Virus record (IMG/VR): IMGVR_UViG_3300025141_013870 | Span: 54,249-118,248 of that record | DNA length: 64,000 nt | Source of the DNA: a virus | Direction: 5' to 3' (one strand) | In this document: piece after piece, positions 24,819 to 57,871 of the stretch | How the letters are laid out: every line of letters starts with the position of its first letter | Position numbering within the stretch: the stretch's first letter is position 1 | The notes under the pieces: model-generated | What the model saw: only the letters and a program-made list of their open reading frames with translations | Told to the model about the DNA's origin: nothing | Databases searched by the model: none | Made by a program: the position numbers and the translations under genes

Positions 24819-27800
24819 ATGTCAGAGAAAAAGAATTTTATACTTCCTAAGAGATTTGTCGGCTTACACGCTCACAGCGGAACTGGATCTCCGTATGACG
24901 GTCTGGGATATCCAGATCAGCATATAGATTTTGTTCTATCTAATGATATGGATGCATGGGCATTAACTGATCACGGAAACGGAAATGGTCTTGCACATGC
25001 TCATGCGTATGCCAAGAAGTTAAAAAACAAGGGACAAAAATATAAACAGCTGTATGGTGTAGAATTTTATTTTGTTCCTTCTCTTTTTGACTGGAGAATA
25101 CAATATGAGAATCATAGAGAGGAAGTTCGTCAAGCTAGAACAGAAAAAAAGTCAAAAGAGAGAACAGATATCGATTCTGAAGACGAGGTGTCAGGCGGAC
25201 TTATTATAGAAAACGAAGAAGAGACAAAAGGTGATTTTGATAAAAATGTGTGGAAAAGACGATATCATCTCGTTGTCTTAGCTAAAAACAGCCAGGGTCT
25301 AGAGAATTTATTTACTCTTGTAAAAAGATCATACACAGATGGTTTTTATAGATTTCCAAGAATTGATTTTGATCTTCTTAATAAGTATGGTGATGGCCTT
25401 ATAGTAAGCACAGCATGCATTGGCGGATACCCATCATCGTTAATAGCAAGAGGTGAATCACATGGAAAGTCAAGCAAAGATATCATTCTTGATTTAGAAA
25501 ACATGTCTGATAGATTTATTGACGCAGTAGGAAGAGAAAATTTTAATCTCGAGATTCAATTCAATTCATTGTCTATGCAACATAAGACAAACAAATATCT
25601 TATAAAGCTTCATGAAAAAACAGGAATTCCTCTAGTTGCAACTGCTGATAGTCACTACTATAGCAGAAACATGTGGGAAGCAAGAGAGCTTTACAGAAAG
25701 CTTGGCAGAATGGGAGCTAGAGGAGATTCAATGCCTACACTTCCTTCTTTTGAAGATCTTAAATGTGAGCTTTATCCTAAGAATGCTAACCAGATGTGGG
25801 ATGAATTTAACGTTCACCTTCCTGAATATGAGTTTTATAAAGGAAAAGAACAGATTATTTCCGATGCAATTGAGAGAACATATGACATTGCATGGGAACA
25901 ATGTGAAGAAATATGGTTTGACGAAGATGCAAAATTACCAAATTTTGACTTGCCTGACAATCCTGCTATTACTCAGCTAGTATTTAGAGTCAAAAAAGCA
26001 CTTATTGATGAAGGTCTTCACGAAAAGAAAGAGTATGTAGAAAGAGCAACGATGGAGCTGAGCGACATCAAGCACCTTGGTTTTGAAAATTATTTTCTCA
26101 CAATGACAAAGGTTTTTGATCTAGCTTCAAAGAAAACTATTATTGGACCAGGAAGAGGTTCTGGAGCAGGATCTCTTGTAAATTATCTCTTAGGAATCAC
26201 TACGACAGATCCCATCAAGTATGGTCTTCTATGGGAGAGGTTTTTGCATAGAGCAAAAGCAGGATGGCCAGATATTGATACAGACGCTGGTGATAGAGAT
26301 GTCTTGATAAATGCGTCTAGAGAATTATTTGGAGATGAATCAGTTGTACCTGTTTCAAATTTTAATACTTTAAAATTAAAATCTCTAATAAAAGATGTTT
26401 CAAAATTTTATGGCATTGATTTTGGTGAGGTCAATGCAATGACAAATAAGCTTGAAAAAGAAGTCATGCATAAGGCAATGGGAGACCATGAAGAAAAATC
26501 GACTTATGTTCTAACTCATGAAGACTGTTTGAAATATTCTGATAACTATGTTGACTTCATGTCAAAATATCCAAAGGTATCCGAACAGGTTCAAAAGCTT
26601 TTTATGGAATCAAGATCTATTGGAAGACATGCAGGCGGAGTCCTGATATGCCCAAATCTAGAAAAATATATGCCACTTATTAAGGTAAGAGGAGAGCTCC
26701 AGACGCCATGGTCAGAAGGCATGAACTTTAGGCACTTAGAGCCTAATGGCTTTCTTAAGTTTGATTTTCTAGGTCTAACAACTTTAAAAATGGTTGAAGA
26801 TTGTATTCGACTTGTCTTGAGAAAACAGGGAAACACATCACCTTCATTTGATGACATTAGTAAATTTTTTGATGATAATATAAACTGTAGATATAATGAC
26901 TTAACTGATGATAAAGTTTGGGAACATGTTTATCACAAGGGAAGATTTGTACAGGTGTTTCAATTTACGCAGCAGGGCGCAAGAAATTTTTGCAGAAGAG
27001 CAAAGCCAAGAACCATAGAAGAGCTAGCAACAATTACGGCAATATATAGGCCGGGCCCGCTGGCAGCAAATGTTGATAAGAAATATGTCAAGACGAAAAG
27101 GGAGGCAGAAAATGGAAGCCCTATTCGCTATGATCATCCAGTGATTGAAGAGATACTGAGTGAAACATATGGTTTTATATCATTCCAAGAGCAATTCATG
27201 CTCTTAGCACAGAGGCTATCAGGATTTGACAAGGGGGAATCAGACAAGATGAGAAAGACACTTGTCAAGAAGTCTCTTGATTCAAATGCAGCAAAGGTGC
27301 AGGAAAGAATTGACTTAAGAAAGAAGTTTGTTGATGGAGCAGTTGAGCTATCTGGAATGAAAAGAGATATAGCAGAGACTCTTTACGAGACAATTGAGTA
27401 TTTTTCTGGATATGGATTTAATAAATCACATGCGATTTCGTATGCGATCGATTCGTATTATTCTGCGTGGCTGCATACTCATTATGAAAAAGAATGGCTA
27501 GCCACATGTCTTCAGACTCAAAACGGAACAAATAAGTTTGGAAAGGTTATCAATGAGATCAAGTCTTTGGGATACAAAATACTTCCTCCTGACATTAATA
27601 TTTCTTCTGATGTCTGGGTGTATAGTGATGAAAGAAACGGTTTTGTTCCGCCTTTAACTGCGATCAAAGGTGTTGGATCAGCTGCAGTTGAAGAGATCAT
27701 TGATCGCAGACCGTTTTCTAATATAGATGAAATGCTTTTTACAGAGGACGGAAAATGGAAGCCTTCTAAGATGAATAAAACATGCTTTGATTCATTGTGC

Positions 27801-28385
27801 AAGGTAGAAGCTTTTGGATCACTTGATGAGATGAAAAATAGAGCAATTAAGAATCATAGACAGCTATATGAAACAATTGTTGGAAATTATGATCTTTTAA
27901 AAAAAGGTCGATACGGAATAACAAAAACTGCGTATAAAAAGACTATTAAAGAAAGAGGTGATATTCCAAGATTTATAGATGAAAAAACAATAGAGAATTA
28001 TGATCTTCAAGATTGGACTCGTGAATCTAAAATATTATTTAGTGTTGACTTGATGGCAGGAGCAGATGAAACTCTTATCTTTCCTCCAAAGATAATGGAG
28101 AAGATTGAAAATGCCAATGTGAGACCTGCCTCTAGCCTGATGGGAAAGGAGAAAGATATAGTCTGGTTCTGTATTCAAACACTAGAGGAGAGAACAACGA
28201 AAAATGGAAAAATTTTCTACAGGATGAAAGTTATAGATAATAACTTCGAAAGTACGTGGATTCGTGTTTGGGGTGCATTTAGAGATATTCCAGATCTTTA
28301 CACCATGTGGATCGCTGAGGTTGCATCTACAGATTCATGGGGCTGTTCTACATCGTCATATAAAATGAAAAGGATTGATGTATAG
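24819..28385 (+). CDS. dnaE: DNA polymerase III alpha subunit (C-family replicase)
   Basis: 1188 residues, the size of bacterial DnaE. The N-terminal PHP domain shows VGLHAHSGTGSPYDG and LTDHGNG. The palm has GPGRGSGAGSLVNYLLG and the aspartates of PDIDTDAGDRD (near 475-485) and FLKFDFLGL (near 645-653). FNKSHAISYA and the helix-hairpin-helix TAIKGVGSAAVEEI lie toward the C terminus. A charged insertion sits at about 105-150. With the DnaB-like helicase and the DEDDh exonuclease it forms a bacterial-style replisome, unusual since most phages use A- or B-family polymerases. Confidence 0.96.
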   Translation: MSEKKNFILPKRFVGLHAHSGTGSPYDGLGYPDQHIDFVLSNDMDAWALTDHGNGNGLAHAHAYAKKLKNKGQKYKQLYGVEFYFVPSLFDWRIQYENHREEVRQARTEKKSKERTDIDSEDEVSGGLIIENEEETKGDFDKNVWKRRYHLVVLAKNSQGLENLFTLVKRSYTDGFYRFPRIDFDLLNKYGDGLIVSTACIGGYPSSLIARGESHGKSSKDIILDLENMSDRFIDAVGRENFNLEIQFNSLSMQHKTNKYLIKLHEKTGIPLVATADSHYYSRNMWEARELYRKLGRMGARGDSMPTLPSFEDLKCELYPKNANQMWDEFNVHLPEYEFYKGKEQIISDAIERTYDIAWEQCEEIWFDEDAKLPNFDLPDNPAITQLVFRVKKALIDEGLHEKKEYVERATMELSDIKHLGFENYFLTMTKVFDLASKKTIIGPGRGSGAGSLVNYLLGITTTDPIKYGLLWERFLHRAKAGWPDIDTDAGDRDVLINASRELFGDESVVPVSNFNTLKLKSLIKDVSKFYGIDFGEVNAMTNKLEKEVMHKAMGDHEEKSTYVLTHEDCLKYSDNYVDFMSKYPKVSEQVQKLFMESRSIGRHAGGVLICPNLEKYMPLIKVRGELQTPWSEGMNFRHLEPNGFLKFDFLGLTTLKMVEDCIRLVLRKQGNTSPSFDDISKFFDDNINCRYNDLTDDKVWEHVYHKGRFVQVFQFTQQGARNFCRRAKPRTIEELATITAIYRPGPLAANVDKKYVKTKREAENGSPIRYDHPVIEEILSETYGFISFQEQFMLLAQRLSGFDKGESDKMRKTLVKKSLDSNAAKVQERIDLRKKFVDGAVELSGMKRDIAETLYETIEYFSGYGFNKSHAISYAIDSYYSAWLHTHYEKEWLATCLQTQNGTNKFGKVINEIKSLGYKILPPDINISSDVWVYSDERNGFVPPLTAIKGVGSAAVEEIIDRRPFSNIDEMLFTEDGKWKPSKMNKTCFDSLCKVEAFGSLDEMKNRAIKNHRQLYETIVGNYDLLKKGRYGITKTAYKKTIKERGDIPRFIDEKTIENYDLQDWTRESKILFSVDLMAGADETLIFPPKIMEKIENANVRPASSLMGKEKDIVWFCIQTLEERTTKNGKIFYRMKVIDNNFESTWIRVWGAFRDIPDLYTMWIAEVASTDSWGCSTSSYKMKRIDV

Positions 28386-33697: not shown

Positions 33698-33970
33698 ATG
33701 AAGACCTTTTCCTCAAAAGATATCTTAGAGATCGTAAAAAAAATACATAATCAAAATGAAAATATTGATGTATTTGCAGGAAAAGGATCAGATAGAAAAA
33801 TAATAGTTAAAAAGGGCCTGAAGATACGTCACAAGCCATCAGGCCTAGTTTATACTGTTTTAAAGGTAATAATTCCAGATGGTAGCTCTGAACCTAAAAT
33901 TTTATGCAGAAGGCCTGGAAAGGAATTACTTATTACGAGAAATGAGTTTAAAGACTACGAGAGGCACTAA
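33698..33970 (+). CDS. Small conserved phage protein, unknown
   Basis: 90 residues: an N-terminal helix, then a beta-rich SH3-like part (GLKIRHKPSGLVYTVLKV, ILCRRPG, LITRNEFKDYE). The stop overlaps the ATG of the superoxide dismutase gene. No function is known to me. Confidence 0.65.
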   Translation: MKTFSSKDILEIVKKIHNQNENIDVFAGKGSDRKIIVKKGLKIRHKPSGLVYTVLKVIIPDGSSEPKILCRRPGKELLITRNEFKDYERH

Positions 33971-34680
33971 TGTCAGATAATAAGGATAAAGGATTGTTCA
34001 CACATAAAGATTTGAGAAAAAACATCAGAAAAAGCTTGAATCTTTGTGATGAGAGGCTAGATGAATCCTATGTTGCACAAGTGAAACAATTTAATCTACC
34101 AACAGAATTACTTAGCAAGTCAAGTAAAAAAAATCATATAGTGCTCTACGACAATTATGTAGCTGTATTTAATAGAATTAGCGCTGAGCTTGATACCGCA
34201 GATAGAGCTAGTTCAAATTCTGATCATTCTCAATTTAGAGATCTTAAAGTTGATGAGACATATAATATGAATTCATCTTACTTACATGAATTATACTTTT
34301 CTAACATTAGTGATCTTCATAGCGAGATATCGATGGATTCACTGTCTTATATGCGTCTCGCTAGAGACTTTGGCTCTTTTGATGATTGGCAAAAAGATTT
34401 TGTCGCTTGCTGCTTGGCTTCTAGGTGCGGCTGGGCGATTACATATTTTAATACTTTCATGCAAAGATACATGAATTGCTCTATTGATCTGCATAGTCTT
34501 AATGTTCCCGTGGGTGCTTATCCCGTCATAGTGATGGATGTGTGGCAACATGCTTATTATAGAGACTATCTTAAGGATGTAAAGACATATGTATATGGCA
34601 TGATGAAGCAGCTAAATTGGAAAGTTATAGAAAAACGATTTGAGAAAGCTGATGAAATTCAAAAAATACTAAGGGCATAA
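33970..34680 (+). CDS. Divergent Fe/Mn superoxide dismutase with N-terminal extension
   Basis: 236 residues aligning along their length with Fe/Mn SOD. All four metal ligands can be placed: H56 (KKNHIVLY), H106 (YLHELYFSN), D190 and H194 in DVWQHAYYRDY (bacterial DVWEHAYYxDY). FGSFDDWQKDF (134-144) and LNWKVIEKRF (215-224) are also SOD hallmarks. The second-sphere E of DVWEHAY is Q here. The first 35 residues are an extra, tag-like region (HKDLRKNIRKSLN). It should detoxify superoxide; whether it acts in the cell or is packaged is unknown. It sits directly after a small gene by TAATG overlap. Confidence 0.78.
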   Translation: MSDNKDKGLFTHKDLRKNIRKSLNLCDERLDESYVAQVKQFNLPTELLSKSSKKNHIVLYDNYVAVFNRISAELDTADRASSNSDHSQFRDLKVDETYNMNSSYLHELYFSNISDLHSEISMDSLSYMRLARDFGSFDDWQKDFVACCLASRCGWAITYFNTFMQRYMNCSIDLHSLNVPVGAYPVIVMDVWQHAYYRDYLKDVKTYVYGMMKQLNWKVIEKRFEKADEIQKILRA

Positions 34681-34681
34681 T

Positions 34682-35338
34682 ATGAAAAATTCAGTTACTA
34701 GAACTATTAGATCTTTGATACTGGAACAGGTAGAAGATCTGTTTGTCAACCCTGCAGCTGCTGAGGAAACAACTCGACTCGAGGTAGATTCAGCAGATGA
34801 TCAAATTGATTCATTTATTTTGAAATTTGAAAAAGATTCAATATCAGAGGATGACAATGAGATCAATAGTCTAAATGAGTCATTATATAATCTGTCTTTA
34901 AAAGCTCTCCTAGAGCAGGAAGAGGACGAAGAAGCTGTTGAAGTAGATGAGGAAGAACCTGTCGAGGATGAGGGTGAAGAGTCTCCGGCTGGTGATGACG
35001 CTGCACCAGAAGATCCTGAACCTGCAGGAAGCGAAGATACAGATGTTGAACCTGCTGAATCTCTTCCAAGACCGCCACTAGACGTTGATTCCTTTACTAA
35101 GCGAGTCGCAAGACTGGCAATGAATCATGAAAACCTTTTAGATATAAAAACAGTTATCATAAACAGAGCTATGAATTTTCTTAAGGAGAATTATGATGAC
35201 GCACACGCCCTTGAGATGAAAGACATTCTTGATTCACAGTTTGATTTTGATCTAGACGGAGGGAAGGAAATACCTTCTGCACCATTTGCTGTAGGCGCCA
35301 ATCCTGCGGGTGCTGGAACTATGGGCGGCGGGGCGTGA
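34682..35338 (+). CDS. Acidic protein with N-terminal RxIRxLI tag
   Basis: 218 residues. Residues 5-20 (VTRTIRSLILEQVEDL) are the shared tag. Residues about 78-120 are almost only glutamate, aspartate, proline and glycine. A helical domain (130-185) follows, then a glycine/alanine-rich end. Such composition suits an internal head, scaffold or disordered virion protein. No enzyme motif is seen. It begins 1 base after the superoxide dismutase stop. Confidence 0.65.
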   Translation: MKNSVTRTIRSLILEQVEDLFVNPAAAEETTRLEVDSADDQIDSFILKFEKDSISEDDNEINSLNESLYNLSLKALLEQEEDEEAVEVDEEEPVEDEGEESPAGDDAAPEDPEPAGSEDTDVEPAESLPRPPLDVDSFTKRVARLAMNHENLLDIKTVIINRAMNFLKENYDDAHALEMKDILDSQFDFDLDGGKEIPSAPFAVGANPAGAGTMGGGA

Positions 35339-35628: not shown

Positions 35629-35908
35629 GATGATTAAATATATTAAAAATTTATTTCGTAGAAGGAGAAGGCATCTCGATCATATCGAGACGCTAGAGGA
35701 GAGAATAATCTCTCTTGAAAAACATCTTTTAGAATCACAGCATATGCTTGCAAAACAGTCAGAGCTTCTATCAGTTGTAGCAAGCATTCAGTGTGATATT
35801 ATCGGAGTAATGTTTAAAGAATCTCCCAAGGCTATAAAGAAAGATAAAAAATCTTCGCAGAAAAGAACGCTTATAGTCATACCATCTGATGATGACTTTA
35901 TAAATTAA
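35621..35908 (+). CDS. Small basic coiled-coil protein, unknown
   Basis: 95 residues: a basic arginine patch (LFRRRRRHLDH) near 10-20, then a coiled coil (ETLEERIISLEKHLLESQHML) and a lysine-rich end. It starts at ATG 35621, overlapping the previous stop. No family is known. Confidence 0.6.
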   Translation: MSEMIKYIKNLFRRRRRHLDHIETLEERIISLEKHLLESQHMLAKQSELLSVVASIQCDIIGVMFKESPKAIKKDKKSSQKRTLIVIPSDDDFIN

Positions 35909-35932
35909 TCCTCCTATTTATATTAGGAGGAT
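35908..35932 (+). promoter_or_regulatory. Hairpin that buries a ribosome binding site
   Basis: ATCCTCCTA at 35908-35916 pairs perfectly with TAGGAGGAT at 35924-35932 across a 7-base loop. The right arm contains the whole AGGAGG Shine-Dalgarno, which lies 5 bases before the ATG at 35936. The helix would block translation until opened, so it may time expression of the membrane protein that follows, or act as a thermosensor-like switch. Confidence 0.65.
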
Positions 35933-35935
35933 CAA

Positions 35936-36130
35936 ATGCGAACTGGACTTGTAGATAGAATTCTAGGTAAAATCATTTCTAGAAAATTTACTGTCTTTGT
36001 AACAGCTACAGCATTAATGCTTTGGGCCGATCTCACTTCAGATACGTGGGGAATGATTGCGATAGTTTATATCGGGGGCCAAAGTGTTATTGATGCAGCG
36101 CTTTCTTGGAAGCACGGTAAAGATGACTAG
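35936..36130 (+). CDS. Small membrane protein, possibly holin-like
   Basis: 64 residues with two hydrophobic segments (about 18-32, FTVFVTATALMLWADL, and 38-55, WGMIAIVYIGGQSVIDAAL), and charged ends. Length and topology would suit a holin. The gene is followed by two further membrane proteins with coiled coils, resembling a lysis cassette, but the endolysin is far away at 8.65 kb. Its ribosome site is inside a perfect hairpin. Confidence 0.5.
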   Translation: MRTGLVDRILGKIISRKFTVFVTATALMLWADLTSDTWGMIAIVYIGGQSVIDAALSWKHGKDD

Positions 36131-36539
36131 TAGTTTAATATGGCTATCGATTAAAGCTCGATTAAGAAAAACATACGCGTGGTGCAAGAAGTACTGGCAG
36201 ATACTTGTTGGTGCTGCGATTCCGATTATTCTGATGATAATATTTAAAAAAAATAACGAAGCTGGAAAAATCTTAGACAGAGCAAGAGATGATTATAAAA
36301 AAGAGATAGACGTTATTAATAAGTCTCATAATAAGGAAATAGAAGATATAGAGGTCGCAAGAAAAATATATTTAAAATCATTAAAAGAAATAGAAGAAAA
36401 ATATATTGATGCCAAAGAGAGCCTCGACGATAAAAAGAAAAAAGAGATAGAGAAAGTCATACTAGAAAATGTTAATAATCCTGATGAGATAACAAGAAGA
36501 ATTTCAGAGATTACAGGATTTGAAATTCATGTATCATAA
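36123..36539 (+). CDS. Membrane-anchored coiled-coil protein (possible inner spanin)
   Basis: 138 residues from ATG 36123, which overlaps the preceding stop. One transmembrane segment (QILVGAAIPIILMIIF, about 23-40) is followed by a long charged coiled coil (about 45-115). This N-in, single-span, coiled-coil layout is that of i-spanins. No overlapping outer-membrane lipoprotein is seen, so the call is tentative. Confidence 0.5.
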   Translation: MTSSLIWLSIKARLRKTYAWCKKYWQILVGAAIPIILMIIFKKNNEAGKILDRARDDYKKEIDVINKSHNKEIEDIEVARKIYLKSLKEIEEKYIDAKESLDDKKKKEIEKVILENVNNPDEITRRISEITGFEIHVS

Positions 36540-40974: not shown

Positions 40975-42030
40975 ATGTTCGCCATGTCTTTATCTGAATT
41001 TCTTTTTGACAAGGATGCAGCTGTCCTTTTTGAGGGAGGGCTTAAGCTACCCGTCAACCAGAGGCATAGGCTAGCAGAGCTTACTCCTGACGTTGCAGAT
41101 CAAGCTATAAAGATATATGAGGATTTAATTAATAGGTGGAATGGATATCTTATCTCTATTGGAGAAGAACCCGTTAAAGCGCTTAGACCAACAGGTTCAG
41201 TTAGCTATTACCAGCTTGATATCTCGCAGAGCAAAGATAACGTGTATGGCGACATAGATTATCTTGTTGAGTTTCCTTTGGCAGTAGAAGGAAATGAATC
41301 TGAGATAAGGCAAGCAGATAGAAGAGCAGACAAAAAATACACAGAACTATTTATTAATTTTTTAAATACAAAGATGCCTGATATTGTAGATGTAGAAGCA
41401 ACCTTGGAGGGCAGGACACCCATGATGGTGATGATACGTCTGCCAGATAACAAGCTAGTTCAAGTTGATACTGTAAAAACATTTCCTAGATATTCATCTT
41501 GGATGGAGGGGCGCTATACGCCAGAGAGAGGATTAAAAGGATATACAACAGGAAATCTCTATAAGGCACTAGGGGACTACCTAGTAATGTCAATTGGAAC
41601 AGAAGGTGTAATAGTTAGATCAAAGATGGGTCAAAGAGTCCAGTCTAAGTTTTCACGAAGTAAAGGAGTCGAAACATCAAGCATTAGTCTTGATATAAGA
41701 AACTTTCTAAGAGATATAGCTAGATATATCATAGGATCCGATGACATAGAAGAAGACCCGCTTTTGACAAAAAATCCAGGAGTAGATCCTGTAAACGTGA
41801 AAATATCTGGAATTGCACGTGGAATCAAGGGTCTTGCAAGAACACTAGGGAAGTACGGTGTGTACGATACAGATGATATGCTAAGAGAGATTCACTCCAG
41901 CTATGTGGAAAATGTAAGAAAAAACATAGAAAATAAATTGAACAAGGGATTAGACGAGACAGCTTATCAAAAACTGTTACAGCTAAATGATCATGTGGCA
42001 GCTATAGTAAAGAAAGAGTTTGGTATTTAA
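40975..42030 (+). CDS. Putative nucleotidyltransferase (Pol-beta-like fold)
   Basis: 351 residues. The pattern RPTGSVSYYQLD near 70-82, then VYGDIDYLVEF with two aspartates near 92-94, and a third in KLVQVDTV near 163 fits the GS...DxD...D layout of minimal nucleotidyltransferases. AAGGA at 40964-40968 sets the start. The same GDxD ... VQVD arrangement recurs in the 1141-residue protein at 43484, so the two may be related. The substrate is unknown: tRNA ends, nucleotides or a protein are all possible. Confidence 0.55.
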   Translation: MFAMSLSEFLFDKDAAVLFEGGLKLPVNQRHRLAELTPDVADQAIKIYEDLINRWNGYLISIGEEPVKALRPTGSVSYYQLDISQSKDNVYGDIDYLVEFPLAVEGNESEIRQADRRADKKYTELFINFLNTKMPDIVDVEATLEGRTPMMVMIRLPDNKLVQVDTVKTFPRYSSWMEGRYTPERGLKGYTTGNLYKALGDYLVMSIGTEGVIVRSKMGQRVQSKFSRSKGVETSSISLDIRNFLRDIARYIIGSDDIEEDPLLTKNPGVDPVNVKISGIARGIKGLARTLGKYGVYDTDDMLREIHSSYVENVRKNIENKLNKGLDETAYQKLLQLNDHVAAIVKKEFGI

Positions 42031-52760: not shown

Positions 52761-53516
52761 TTGAATAATTCCTTAGATCCTTATTTTAAAAACGTCGGTA
52801 GAAGAAAGCTTCTTACAAGAGAAGAAGAGGTATATCTATCACAGAAAATAGAAAAAGGAGACGAGCTAGCAAGAGCTCATATGATTGAAGCGAATCTAAG
52901 ATTAGCAATAAGTATAGCCAAAAAATATTATTATAGTGGCTGTAATATGGATGATCTTATTCAGGAATCTAATATCGGCTTGATGAAAGCAGTTGAAAAG
53001 TTTGACTGGAGGAAAGGATTCAAGTTTAGCACGTATGCAAGCTGGTGGATTAGACAATCAGTATGCAGGTACATTAGCTCTCACAAAAACACAATTAAAA
53101 TTCCTGCTCACGCTAGCAGTCTTTCATATAAAATAAAAAATCTTATTAGTGAATATGAAGATGAGTTTTCCCAAAAGCCAACAATAGAAGAGATTTCTGA
53201 AATATTGGGAGTAACTCAGAGCATGGTTAAGGATAGCTTTGACTCTATAAAATTACAATATATGGTCCAGTATGATGCTAAGATTGGAAATGATGATACC
53301 GGTAGACGTATCTTTGAGACGATTCCAGATGAGCATATCACTCTCCCAGACGATGAGCTAGATAAGAAAAAGCTATCTAATATTGTCGCATCATCTCTTT
53401 CTCGTTTAACAAAGAGAGAAGAACAGGTGATGAGATTAAGGTTTGGGCTATTCGAACTTGATGATGATAACTTTGCTGTAACTGAAGAACAGCTAAATAA
53501 TATAAAGGAGCAATAA
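52761..53516 (+). CDS. Sigma-70-family factor lacking a normal region 4.2
   Basis: 251 residues from a TTG start. Region 1.2 (LLTREEEVYLSQKIEKGDELA), region 2 (NLRLAISIAKKYY, DLIQESNIGLMKAVEKFD, KFSTYASWWIRQSV) and region 3 (a bundle near 130-175) are typical of RpoD/RpoH-type factors. Region 4.1 (SSLSRLTKREEQVMRLRFGL) is present. The -35-reading helix-turn-helix is missing: the chain stops after FAVTEEQLNNIKEQ, a degenerate trace of region 4.2. The next gene encodes a separate helix-turn-helix that could replace it. It should redirect RNA polymerase to phage promoters. Confidence 0.88.
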   Translation: MNNSLDPYFKNVGRRKLLTREEEVYLSQKIEKGDELARAHMIEANLRLAISIAKKYYYSGCNMDDLIQESNIGLMKAVEKFDWRKGFKFSTYASWWIRQSVCRYISSHKNTIKIPAHASSLSYKIKNLISEYEDEFSQKPTIEEISEILGVTQSMVKDSFDSIKLQYMVQYDAKIGNDDTGRRIFETIPDEHITLPDDELDKKKLSNIVASSLSRLTKREEQVMRLRFGLFELDDDNFAVTEEQLNNIKEQ

Positions 53517-54513: not shown

Positions 54514-55011
54514 ATGGAAATTGTAAAGTGGCCCAGCAATATATTGATGAAAAAGTCTGACATCGTTAGTGATGTCAAAGATGTTCATGATGTATTTGAC
54601 GAGATGAAGATTCTTATGAGATCTAATAACGGTATAGGATTAGCTGCTCCTCAGGTGGGCATCTCAAAAAGATTCTTTATTCTTGATGAATCTATTCTAG
54701 CAGATGTTGACAAAAGAGATAAGACATGTGATGTCTTGGTCATGGTCAATCCTGAGATAGTTGACGGTTTAGGAGAGATTGTTGTTGAAGAGGGGTGTCT
54801 ATCTATTCTGGGAGAGACGTTTAGTGTTCAACGAGCTCCCTGGATTTTAGTGAGATTTACAGATGAGAACGGAGATAATCACGAGAAAGGGTTTTCTGGA
54901 TTGACAGCGATAGCAATTCAGCATGAGTGTGATCATCTAGATGGTAGGATTCTCGTTGAGAGAGCTACACTTGAAAGAAGAAATGAAATTAGAGAGAGGT
55001 TAACAGCTTAA
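54514..55011 (+). CDS. def: Peptide deformylase
   Basis: Removes the formyl group from new proteins. All three motifs are present in the 165-residue product: GIGLAAPQ (40-47), EEGCLS (C95) and QHECDH (H137, E138, H141). Deformylases are known in marine phages, where they may favour turnover or stability of phage or photosystem proteins. This one has the bacterial type core with a short C-terminal tail, typical of phage forms. Confidence 0.94.
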   Translation: MEIVKWPSNILMKKSDIVSDVKDVHDVFDEMKILMRSNNGIGLAAPQVGISKRFFILDESILADVDKRDKTCDVLVMVNPEIVDGLGEIVVEEGCLSILGETFSVQRAPWILVRFTDENGDNHEKGFSGLTAIAIQHECDHLDGRILVERATLERRNEIRERLTA

Positions 55012-56272: not shown

Positions 56273-57871
56273 ATGTGCGGCTTTTTAACTTACTTTGGTT
56301 ATGACTATGATCTTTTTCAATTGGAAGAGTCGTCTAAGAAAATAAGCTATAGAGGTCCTGATACATCATCATACAAGACAATATCGCCTAATGTTGTGAT
56401 GACATTTCACCGGCTTGCCATAATGGACACATCATCTTTAGGTGATCAGCCTTTGTTTCACCCTGAGGATGCTAGCCTATCCTTGGTGTGCAATGGTGAG
56501 ATCTATAATTATAAAACTTTAATAGATGAGCTTGGGTTTCAAATGAAATCTAATTCTGATTGTGAAGTCATTTTGCATCTTTATAAAAAATACGGTATAG
56601 AAAAAACAGTTGAGATGCTTGATGGAGTTTTTGCATTTACACTATACGATGGAAAAAAGAATATCTTATTTGCATCTAGAGATTCATTTGGTGTGAGGCC
56701 TTCGTTTATAGGATGGGATAACCGCGGTGGCGTTGCGATTGCTAGCGAGATAAAAGCTTTAGTTGATATTTGTGATAAGAGTATAATTCCCTTCCCGCCA
56801 GGATCATGGTGGGCTTCTGACGTTCCTTATGCATTTACAGGGTTTAATGTACATTTTGATAATAAATTTCAAAAGGGCGATGAAAAAGAATTTTGTAAAA
56901 ATATAAAAAATCTTCTAACTAATTCTGTTAAAAAGAGAATGATGTCTGATAGGGAGGTAGGATGCTTGTTATCTGGTGGACTAGATTCCAGCCTGATATC
57001 AGCATTAGTTGCCTCGATGACAGACGACAGAAAAAAATTAAAAACATTTTCAATTGGCATGGAAGGAAGTCCAGACTTAGATCATGCAAAAATAGTTGCA
57101 GATCACATAGGATCTGATCATCACTCAATTCAATTATCTCAACAGGAATTTCTTGATGCTATAGATGTTGTTATTTATAACATCGAATCATATGATACAA
57201 CGACAGTTAGAGCATCAGTGGGAAATTATCTAGTTTCAAAATACATTAGAGAGAACACAGATGTTAAAGTTGTATTTAATGGTGACGGAGCAGATGAGGT
57301 ATGTATGGGATATGTTTATAATAAGCATGCTCCCTCTGTAGATGATTTTTACAATGAGAACATTAAGCTAATTGATGAAATTTATATGTTTGATGTATTA
57401 CGATCAGATAGATGCGTGAGCTCTAATGGACTTGAAGCCCGCACACCATTTCTTGATAAAAAATTTGTAGAATATTATATGTCAATTCCGCCTGAGATGA
57501 AGATGTTCGGTAGCAACAAAAGACCTGAAAAATATCTTTTACGCAAGGCATTTGAAAAATCTAATCTTCTTCCTGATGAAGTTTTGTGGCGTCGCAAGTG
57601 TGCTTTTTCAGATGGTGTGAGCAGTATTGAAAATTCATGGCACAAAACGTTGCAAAAGTTTATAAATTCTCAGGTCACAGATAAAGAGTTTGAGAGAGAA
57701 AGGGCAAAGATCGAGCACTGTTCTCCTATTTTAAAAGAAAGTTACTATTATAGGAAGGTTTTTAAGACGTTTTTTGGAGATAATTCTCATATTATTCCTC
57801 ACTTTTGGATGCCAAATTGGTCAGATACAGTTGATCCTTCTGCTAGAGAGTTATCTGGATATAAAGAATAG
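56273..57871 (+). CDS. asnB: Asparagine synthetase, glutamine-hydrolysing
   Basis: 532 residues. The N-terminal glutaminase has the nucleophile C2 (MCGF) and CNGEIYNY; the synthetase domain has the PP-loop LLSGGLDSS near 234-242 and SIGMEGSPDLDHAKIVADHI. The full length and both active sites suggest it works, turning aspartate plus glutamine into asparagine. Alternatively it may amidate another acceptor such as a sugar, since AsnB-like proteins often occur in surface-sugar clusters and a cytidylyltransferase-like gene is adjacent. Confidence 0.93.
   Translation: MCGFLTYFGYDYDLFQLEESSKKISYRGPDTSSYKTISPNVVMTFHRLAIMDTSSLGDQPLFHPEDASLSLVCNGEIYNYKTLIDELGFQMKSNSDCEVILHLYKKYGIEKTVEMLDGVFAFTLYDGKKNILFASRDSFGVRPSFIGWDNRGGVAIASEIKALVDICDKSIIPFPPGSWWASDVPYAFTGFNVHFDNKFQKGDEKEFCKNIKNLLTNSVKKRMMSDREVGCLLSGGLDSSLISALVASMTDDRKKLKTFSIGMEGSPDLDHAKIVADHIGSDHHSIQLSQQEFLDAIDVVIYNIESYDTTTVRASVGNYLVSKYIRENTDVKVVFNGDGADEVCMGYVYNKHAPSVDDFYNENIKLIDEIYMFDVLRSDRCVSSNGLEARTPFLDKKFVEYYMSIPPEMKMFGSNKRPEKYLLRKAFEKSNLLPDEVLWRRKCAFSDGVSSIENSWHKTLQKFINSQVTDKEFERERAKIEHCSPILKESYYYRKVFKTFFGDNSHIIPHFWMPNWSDTVDPSARELSGYKE

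Follow-up and report, generated by a model that had tools for sequence, protein, structure and literature searches.

In phage T4, the prohead protease gp21 is described as cutting after L/I-X-E and taking 7 to 65 residues off virion proteins, and the propeptides of the internal proteins (IPs), 10-19 residues in length, are described as capsid targeting sequences (PMC9026906). In vaccinia virus, A45R is reported to be a non-functional virion protein resembling superoxide dismutase (SOD) (PMC9282662). In the open-access literature searched, we found no account of a phage Fe/Mn-SOD that is packaged in the head or lacks its metal. The stretch of DNA analyzed here (the window; 64,000 nucleotides, positions 54249-118248 of a 118,248-base virus record) carries a gene for a 236-aa SOD-like protein of the Fe/Mn-SOD family (33970..34680; this gene and its features lie on the plus strand). 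We read the protein, with a probability of roughly 0.6, as a homologue of Fe/Mn-SOD that has become an internal head protein in a T4-like lineage, an enzyme in most members of its family and a pseudo-enzyme in others.

The SOD open reading frame was intact; it begins with ATG where the preceding gene stops, and one base separates its stop from the next ORF. Membership of the Fe/Mn-SOD protein family is certain. Pfam Sod_Fe_C matched the protein at 7.1e-18, over the Pfam cut-off, and among solved structures the Aquifex pyrophilus SOD 1coj came first (E=1.9e-29), ahead of SODs from archaea and actinobacteria; both matches bear out the first-pass annotation, in which the gene had been called a divergent phage SOD homologue. 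Sod_Fe_N matched weakly (E=0.092, 13.7 bits against a cut-off of 27), and the corresponding region of the protein aligns with 1coj and shares its fold. The top NCBIfam model was a haloarchaeal SOD (91 bits against a cut-off of 300), a PHROGs search with the protein gave nothing above noise (best E 0.44), and the only two BFVD matches at E <= 0.001 were both named superoxide dismutase of uncultured phages. Structure prediction, which the annotation had named as a check, returned the SOD fold: the AlphaFold model built from 62 family members had a mean pLDDT of 91.6 and a pTM of 0.81, and it superposed on 1coj over 202 residues at 1.4 A (Z 27.0), with model residues 33-236 corresponding to chain residues 2-209.

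Four metal ligands had been proposed at first reading, H56 (34135..34137), H106 (34285..34287), D190 (34537..34539), and H194 (34549..34551), and the alignment, the cellular SODs, and the joint loss of these residues within the phage family all place them there. H106, D190, and H194 align directly with the ligand positions of solved SODs. H56 lies outside that alignment, 7 rather than 8 residues before the Tyr-Val of the first core helix, the Tyr of which is Y63, at the gateway-tyrosine position. In the H56 column, His was present in 13/13 cellular SODs, a sample from a genome scan listing 80 loci, and three of the 13 (L178, L179, and L181) had the same 7-residue spacing. The assignment of H56 as a ligand is supported by this His of the cellular SODs and by its loss together with the other ligands in the phage family. 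The possibility that H56 was the wrong ligand, one residue short in helix 1, was dropped because cellular SODs share the spacing.

The second shell of the window protein comprises Y63, W155, H175, W192, and Y196, and H175 stands where the Mycobacterium tuberculosis SOD has His145. This outer shell was kept in nearly all of the 85 members with intact ligands (W155 in 85/85, Y196 in 84/85, H175 and W192 each in 83/85, and Y63 in 79/85). The His30 position is occupied by Leu59 in the window protein and by Leu, Ile, or Lys in ligand-intact members; Leu was also found there in 3/13 cellular SODs. The dimer-bridge Glu, part of the ExxH of the neighboring subunit, is missing from the window protein, which has Q193 (34546..34548) in place of Glu170 of E. 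coli MnSOD and Glu162 of the human enzyme. This replacement had been remarked upon in the first-pass annotation and is real: Gln was found in 41 of the 85 ligand-intact members (window included) and therefore is not a sequencing error, with Glu in the other 44 and in 13/13 cellular SODs. The E170A form of E. coli MnSOD is described as an inactive, iron-only protein, and changes at human E162 as leaving 5-25% of the activity (PMC9208312). The bridge Glu is not an absolute requirement in this family, but it bears on activity. Judged by its residues, the window protein is likely an active SOD, a prediction made less certain by Gln193.

Single-sequence and profile scans of IMG/VR returned 12, 142, and 91 confirmed relatives, and the earlier statement that phage SODs are very rare was wrong for this family, with 142 relatives in one scan. 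The sequences taken (the 12, the best 80 of the 142, and the best 80 of the 91) came to 173 with the window and were reduced to 106 after merging those identical over the last 200 residues; since only the best 80 were taken from each of the two larger scans, distant relatives are under-sampled in this set. The survey patterns lie in residues 126-143, so that invariance in that stretch is partly by construction. A tree of the 106 phage and 13 cellular sequences was calculated by a quick method, with no bootstrap and with the ligand and second-shell columns masked. A starred branch (99) split the phage sequences from the cellular SODs, and most of the Gln193 forms belonged to a single starred clade of 42, the window among them. 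Four of 14 capsid-bearing contigs had the SOD gene, most of these contigs being fragments and the two loci tens of kilobases apart; the phages nearest by capsid (Flavobacterium phage immuto, Rhodothermus phage RM378, XacN1, and others) were absent from the 17 SOD-query records.

Upstream of the SOD gene in the window are a nucleotide-sugar epimerase-like gene and genes for a thymidine kinase, a DHH-type protein, and a dCMP deaminase, the last three of which precede the SOD gene in most loci. Directly downstream is an acidic ORF (34682..35338, plus strand; 218 aa, 26% Asp+Glu), a conserved neighbor kept in most loci. Among 105 loci or windows, the next ORF of at least 140 aa contained 15-33% Asp+Glu in 104, and in the exception (L004) a different gene had been picked. 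This acidic neighbor possibly resembles head-core proteins; many of its relatives have short N-termini ending in LxEQ, as if they too were cut by a prohead protease. Elsewhere, the window holds several apparent phage chaperones (23723-24772, 50064-51665, and 61820-63715), among which are GroEL (phrog_5725, 4.7e-154) and two ORFs that presumably begin like a DnaJ J-domain protein and DnaK, respectively, the DnaK-like ORF matching the unnamed family phrog_22485. The 1188-aa product of ORF 24819-28385 is presumably a bacterial-type DNA polymerase III alpha subunit, and a match to a family A type polymerase also occurs in the record (L016, 8618-9844). ORFs 52761-53516 and 54514-55011 look to us like a sigma-70-type factor and a peptide deformylase, and ORF 56273-57871, with weak PHROG matches of the glutamine amidotransferase type, is presumably an asparagine synthase or amidotransferase.

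Ahead of the SOD fold, the protein has an extra N-terminal segment (residues 1-32, 33970..34065), in which the first-pass annotation had seen a tag that might send the protein to the virion. The segment is real: in the model, residues 12-22 form an amphipathic helix, followed by L30-D31-E32. Conservation across the segment was generally low, the mean major-residue fraction being 0.31 for residues 1-31 versus 0.67 for residues 33-236, and was concentrated at I19 (0.81), L23 (0.85), and L30 (0.74). The length varied from 9 to 60 residues with a median of 28, values that depend on start codons set by rule and possibly off; the nine-residue form (L008) is preceded by a plausible ribosome site. E32 was Glu in 106/106 members. 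The sequence [LIVM]-x-E followed by [AGS] was present in 103/106, including 21/21 of the members that have lost metal ligands, and the three exceptions had Asn after the Glu (L067 and L104) or Lys at P3 (L109); P3 was L or I in 96/106. None of the 13 cellular SODs compared had the L-x-E site. Within the phage family, the active site is less well conserved than this tag. With a conserved site of the T4 prohead-protease type now found in it, a virion-directing role for the tag is plausible.

The frequency of the motif was compared between the first 70 residues of ORFs and elsewhere, and in the window's own record (115 ORFs) no L-x-E enrichment was detected at N-termini (0.0051 versus 0.0044 per residue). 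The motif is therefore common by chance in this record, and the case for a tag rests on conservation. As a control, 15 other gene families around the locus were inspected, a comparison informative only for those with enough orthologues. Two of these families had a motif column in at least half of their rows, neither of them as strict as that of the SOD: the thymidine kinase (62/69, at residue 96, far from the N-terminus, with chance or catalysis as the probable cause) and the acidic neighbor, with an L-x-E-[AGS] column at residue 66 in 39/68 orthologues. In addition, the N-terminus of the ORF at 40975-42030 ends in LFE/GG before a nucleotidyltransferase-like motif, and its product is possibly another head-packaged enzyme; relatives of this ORF were found in 2/27 records, too few for testing its LFE/G site.

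A gp21-type prohead protease (Peptidase_S77, PF03420; 2.6e-26) is encoded in the same record, outside the window (G000:19545-19988). PF03420 was present in 29/43 SOD-bearing records, corresponding to 29/31 of those of at least 114 kb and 0/12 of those below 85 kb. Also in the first part of the record are a terminase, a portal protein, a T4-type major capsid protein, a neck protein, a baseplate hub, and sheath domains. The tail-sheath domain matches (G000:32833-33126 and 35662-36207; L015) lie in two adjacent ORFs of >1000 aa each. Near residue 63, all of the capsid proteins from this and related records (31/31) had L[RK]E with A, Q, S, V, or T as the next residue, and most of these 31 proteins had LTE/G or LAE/G near residue 12. 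From the conservation of E32, the structural alignment with 1coj, and the protease gene, a cut is proposed between E32 and S33 (34063..34068) that would release a mature SOD-fold domain of 204 aa (residues 33-236, 34066..34677). The SOD domain starts one residue after the Glu in both of the models obtained, at residue 33 in the window protein and at residue 30, after E29, in a member without ligands (L130). A cleavable head-targeting propeptide is quite probably what the extension is, this being the best account of an invariant Glu and of its retention in proteins that have lost their ligands.

Several points count against a location in the head. E32 might be kept for another reason, and 3/106 members depart from the strict site. 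The capsid site has Gln, Val, or Thr after the Glu in some copies. L-x-E sites are common by chance, and some 60 kb separate the capsid module from the SOD gene, whose neighbors are unassigned or belong to nucleotide metabolism.

The H/H/D/H ligand set was kept in 85/106 members, the window among them, and lost in 21. The ligand-lost patterns were RQDG and NSSR (four members each), QFSE (three), RRDG and NTSR (two each), and the single cases HHDT, MSNR, HNDN, LREG, QRDG, and NTCS. Six ligand changes were needed on the masked tree, and the starred branches force at least three; the six are read as losses because all of the cellular outgroup rows are intact. Two records (L120 and L168), both belonging to the QFSE clade, have two adjacent full-length major capsid protein genes (G014:176269-180147 and G017:139110-142962, respectively). 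A total of 49 window columns showed a conservation of 95% or more among the 85 intact members and were scored in the 21 ligand-lost ones. The least retained were W192, H194, H106, H175, H56, D190, D95, and W155 (0 to 52%), a set made up of all four ligands, the Asp D95, and three residues of the second shell. The other 41 columns were retained in 67 to 100% of the ligand-lost members, 28 of them in 21/21. That the metal-site columns relax together gives independent support for the four residues forming one site in the intact members, and by these column counts it appears to be the metal site alone that was given up in the others.

The fold appears to have outlasted the ligands. The model of L130 (NSSR, with no ligand left), built from 44 members, had a pLDDT of 85.5 and a pTM of 0.77 and matched 1coj over 205 residues at 1.8 A (Z 26.0), with the SOD fold kept. 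Among ligand-lost pairs, dN/dS was 0.018, 0.042, and 0.053 in the three of 18 without synonymous saturation; among intact pairs it was 0.09-0.17 in the seven measurable of 12. Pfam Sod_Fe_C still matched 21/21 ligand-lost proteins, so that neither an SOD fold nor a Pfam match alone is proof of an enzyme. Each of 33/33 records, ligand-lost ones included, had one Sod_Fe_C match, and a search with this model found no second SOD in the ligand-lost records, which may be incomplete. The metal site is dispensable in this phage family, a conclusion that goes beyond the first-pass annotation. Retention of the tag, the fold, and strong purifying selection without the metal site points to a further role within the virion.

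The reading we prefer places these genes in a lineage of T4-like, contractile-tailed phages with large genomes. The extension would act like a T4 capsid targeting sequence and take the SOD-like protein into the prohead core, where the S77 protease would cut after E32 and free the SOD domain of 204 residues within the head. Where the site is intact, as in the window's lineage, the protein probably works as a superoxide-removing enzyme with Fe (or Mn) bound; it may either shield the packaged genome and virion or be ejected with the DNA and act early in the host. In at least several lineages, catalysis would have become dispensable and the protein would have been kept as a structural or binding component of the head. 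For the window protein itself, both the head location and the SOD activity are predictions.

It is unlikely, in comparison, that the protein is a cytosolic auxiliary metabolic SOD that protects the infected cell and carries its extension incidentally. Such a role would fit the four ligands and second shell held in 85/106 members, the position of the gene, which in most loci comes after those for thymidine kinase, a DHH-type protein, and dCMP deaminase, and the proposal of SODs as ROS-defense genes of freshwater phages (PMC6802176); it does not explain why the extension Glu is invariant (106/106) while the rest of the extension varies, or why 21 members keep the gene, the tag, and purifying selection without ligands and with no other SOD in the record. 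Still more doubtful is a structural or binding protein throughout, with a structural or vestigial metal site and no SOD activity in any lineage. The losses on the tree (at least six), the replacement of the bridge Glu by Gln in 41/85 intact members at a position where the E170A and E162 changes are described as harmful (PMC9208312), and Leu, Ile, or Lys at the His30 position in intact members all agree with it. Intact members, however, keep the outer catalytic shell, for which there is no obvious need around a metal of purely structural use, an E-to-Q change is milder than E-to-A, and cellular SODs (3/13) also have Leu at the His30 position. That the members without ligands are pseudogenes in decay or products of misassembly, uninformative about a second role, is very improbable and already largely refuted by the counts: they come mostly from short metagenome contigs, and single records can hold errors, but there are 21 different sequences, spread over several supported clades and having replacements in common (RQDG in 4, NSSR in 4, QFSE in 3), with open reading frames, dN/dS of 0.018-0.053 where measurable, and all other conserved columns kept.

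A wider formulation is offered tentatively, at somewhat below even odds: an SOD with an added capsid targeting sequence would have become an ejection-type head protein delivered with the genome, at least several lineages would independently have shed the metal site and turned it into a pure head or host-interaction protein, and many SODs listed as viral auxiliary metabolic genes would be virion proteins, some of them non-enzymes. A Sod_Fe_C match in a viral contig is no proof of an antioxidant gene, and this affects counts of viral ROS-defense genes. If the internal head protein reading is true, a processed N-terminus is predicted at Ser33, the family would be a prokaryotic counterpart to the virion-packaged SOD-like proteins of poxviruses, and live and metal-less forms side by side would let the change from enzyme to head protein be traced.

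Compared with known systems, the window protein shares with the Aquifex pyrophilus Fe-SOD (1coj) the whole-domain fold and the four ligand positions, and its second-shell His175 is as in Mycobacterium tuberculosis and archaeal SODs. It differs from 1coj and other Fe/Mn-SODs in its low identity (~32%), in the N-terminal extension with an L-x-E site, in Gln for the bridge Glu, in having no His30, and, at the level of its family, in the loss of ligands in 21/106 relatives. Fe/Mn-SOD genes likewise occur in other large phages, the Pseudomonas phages PA5oct, MIJ3, and the Callisto group, with 24.6% identity over 55% of the query. With T4 IPI, IPII, IPIII, and Alt, the window protein shares a short extension ending in L/I-x-E before a functional domain and, as with these internal head proteins and gp21, an S77 prohead protease encoded in the same record; the likeness lies in the extension and the protease gene. 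Vaccinia A45R would be the closest functional parallel. A45R and the leporipoxvirus SOD-like proteins are described as meeting the same fate, that of a virion-packaged SOD homologue without activity (PMC9282662), but they belong to the Cu/Zn-SOD family, with an unrelated fold, in viruses of eukaryotes, and, unlike them, the phage family holds intact and ligand-lost members side by side.
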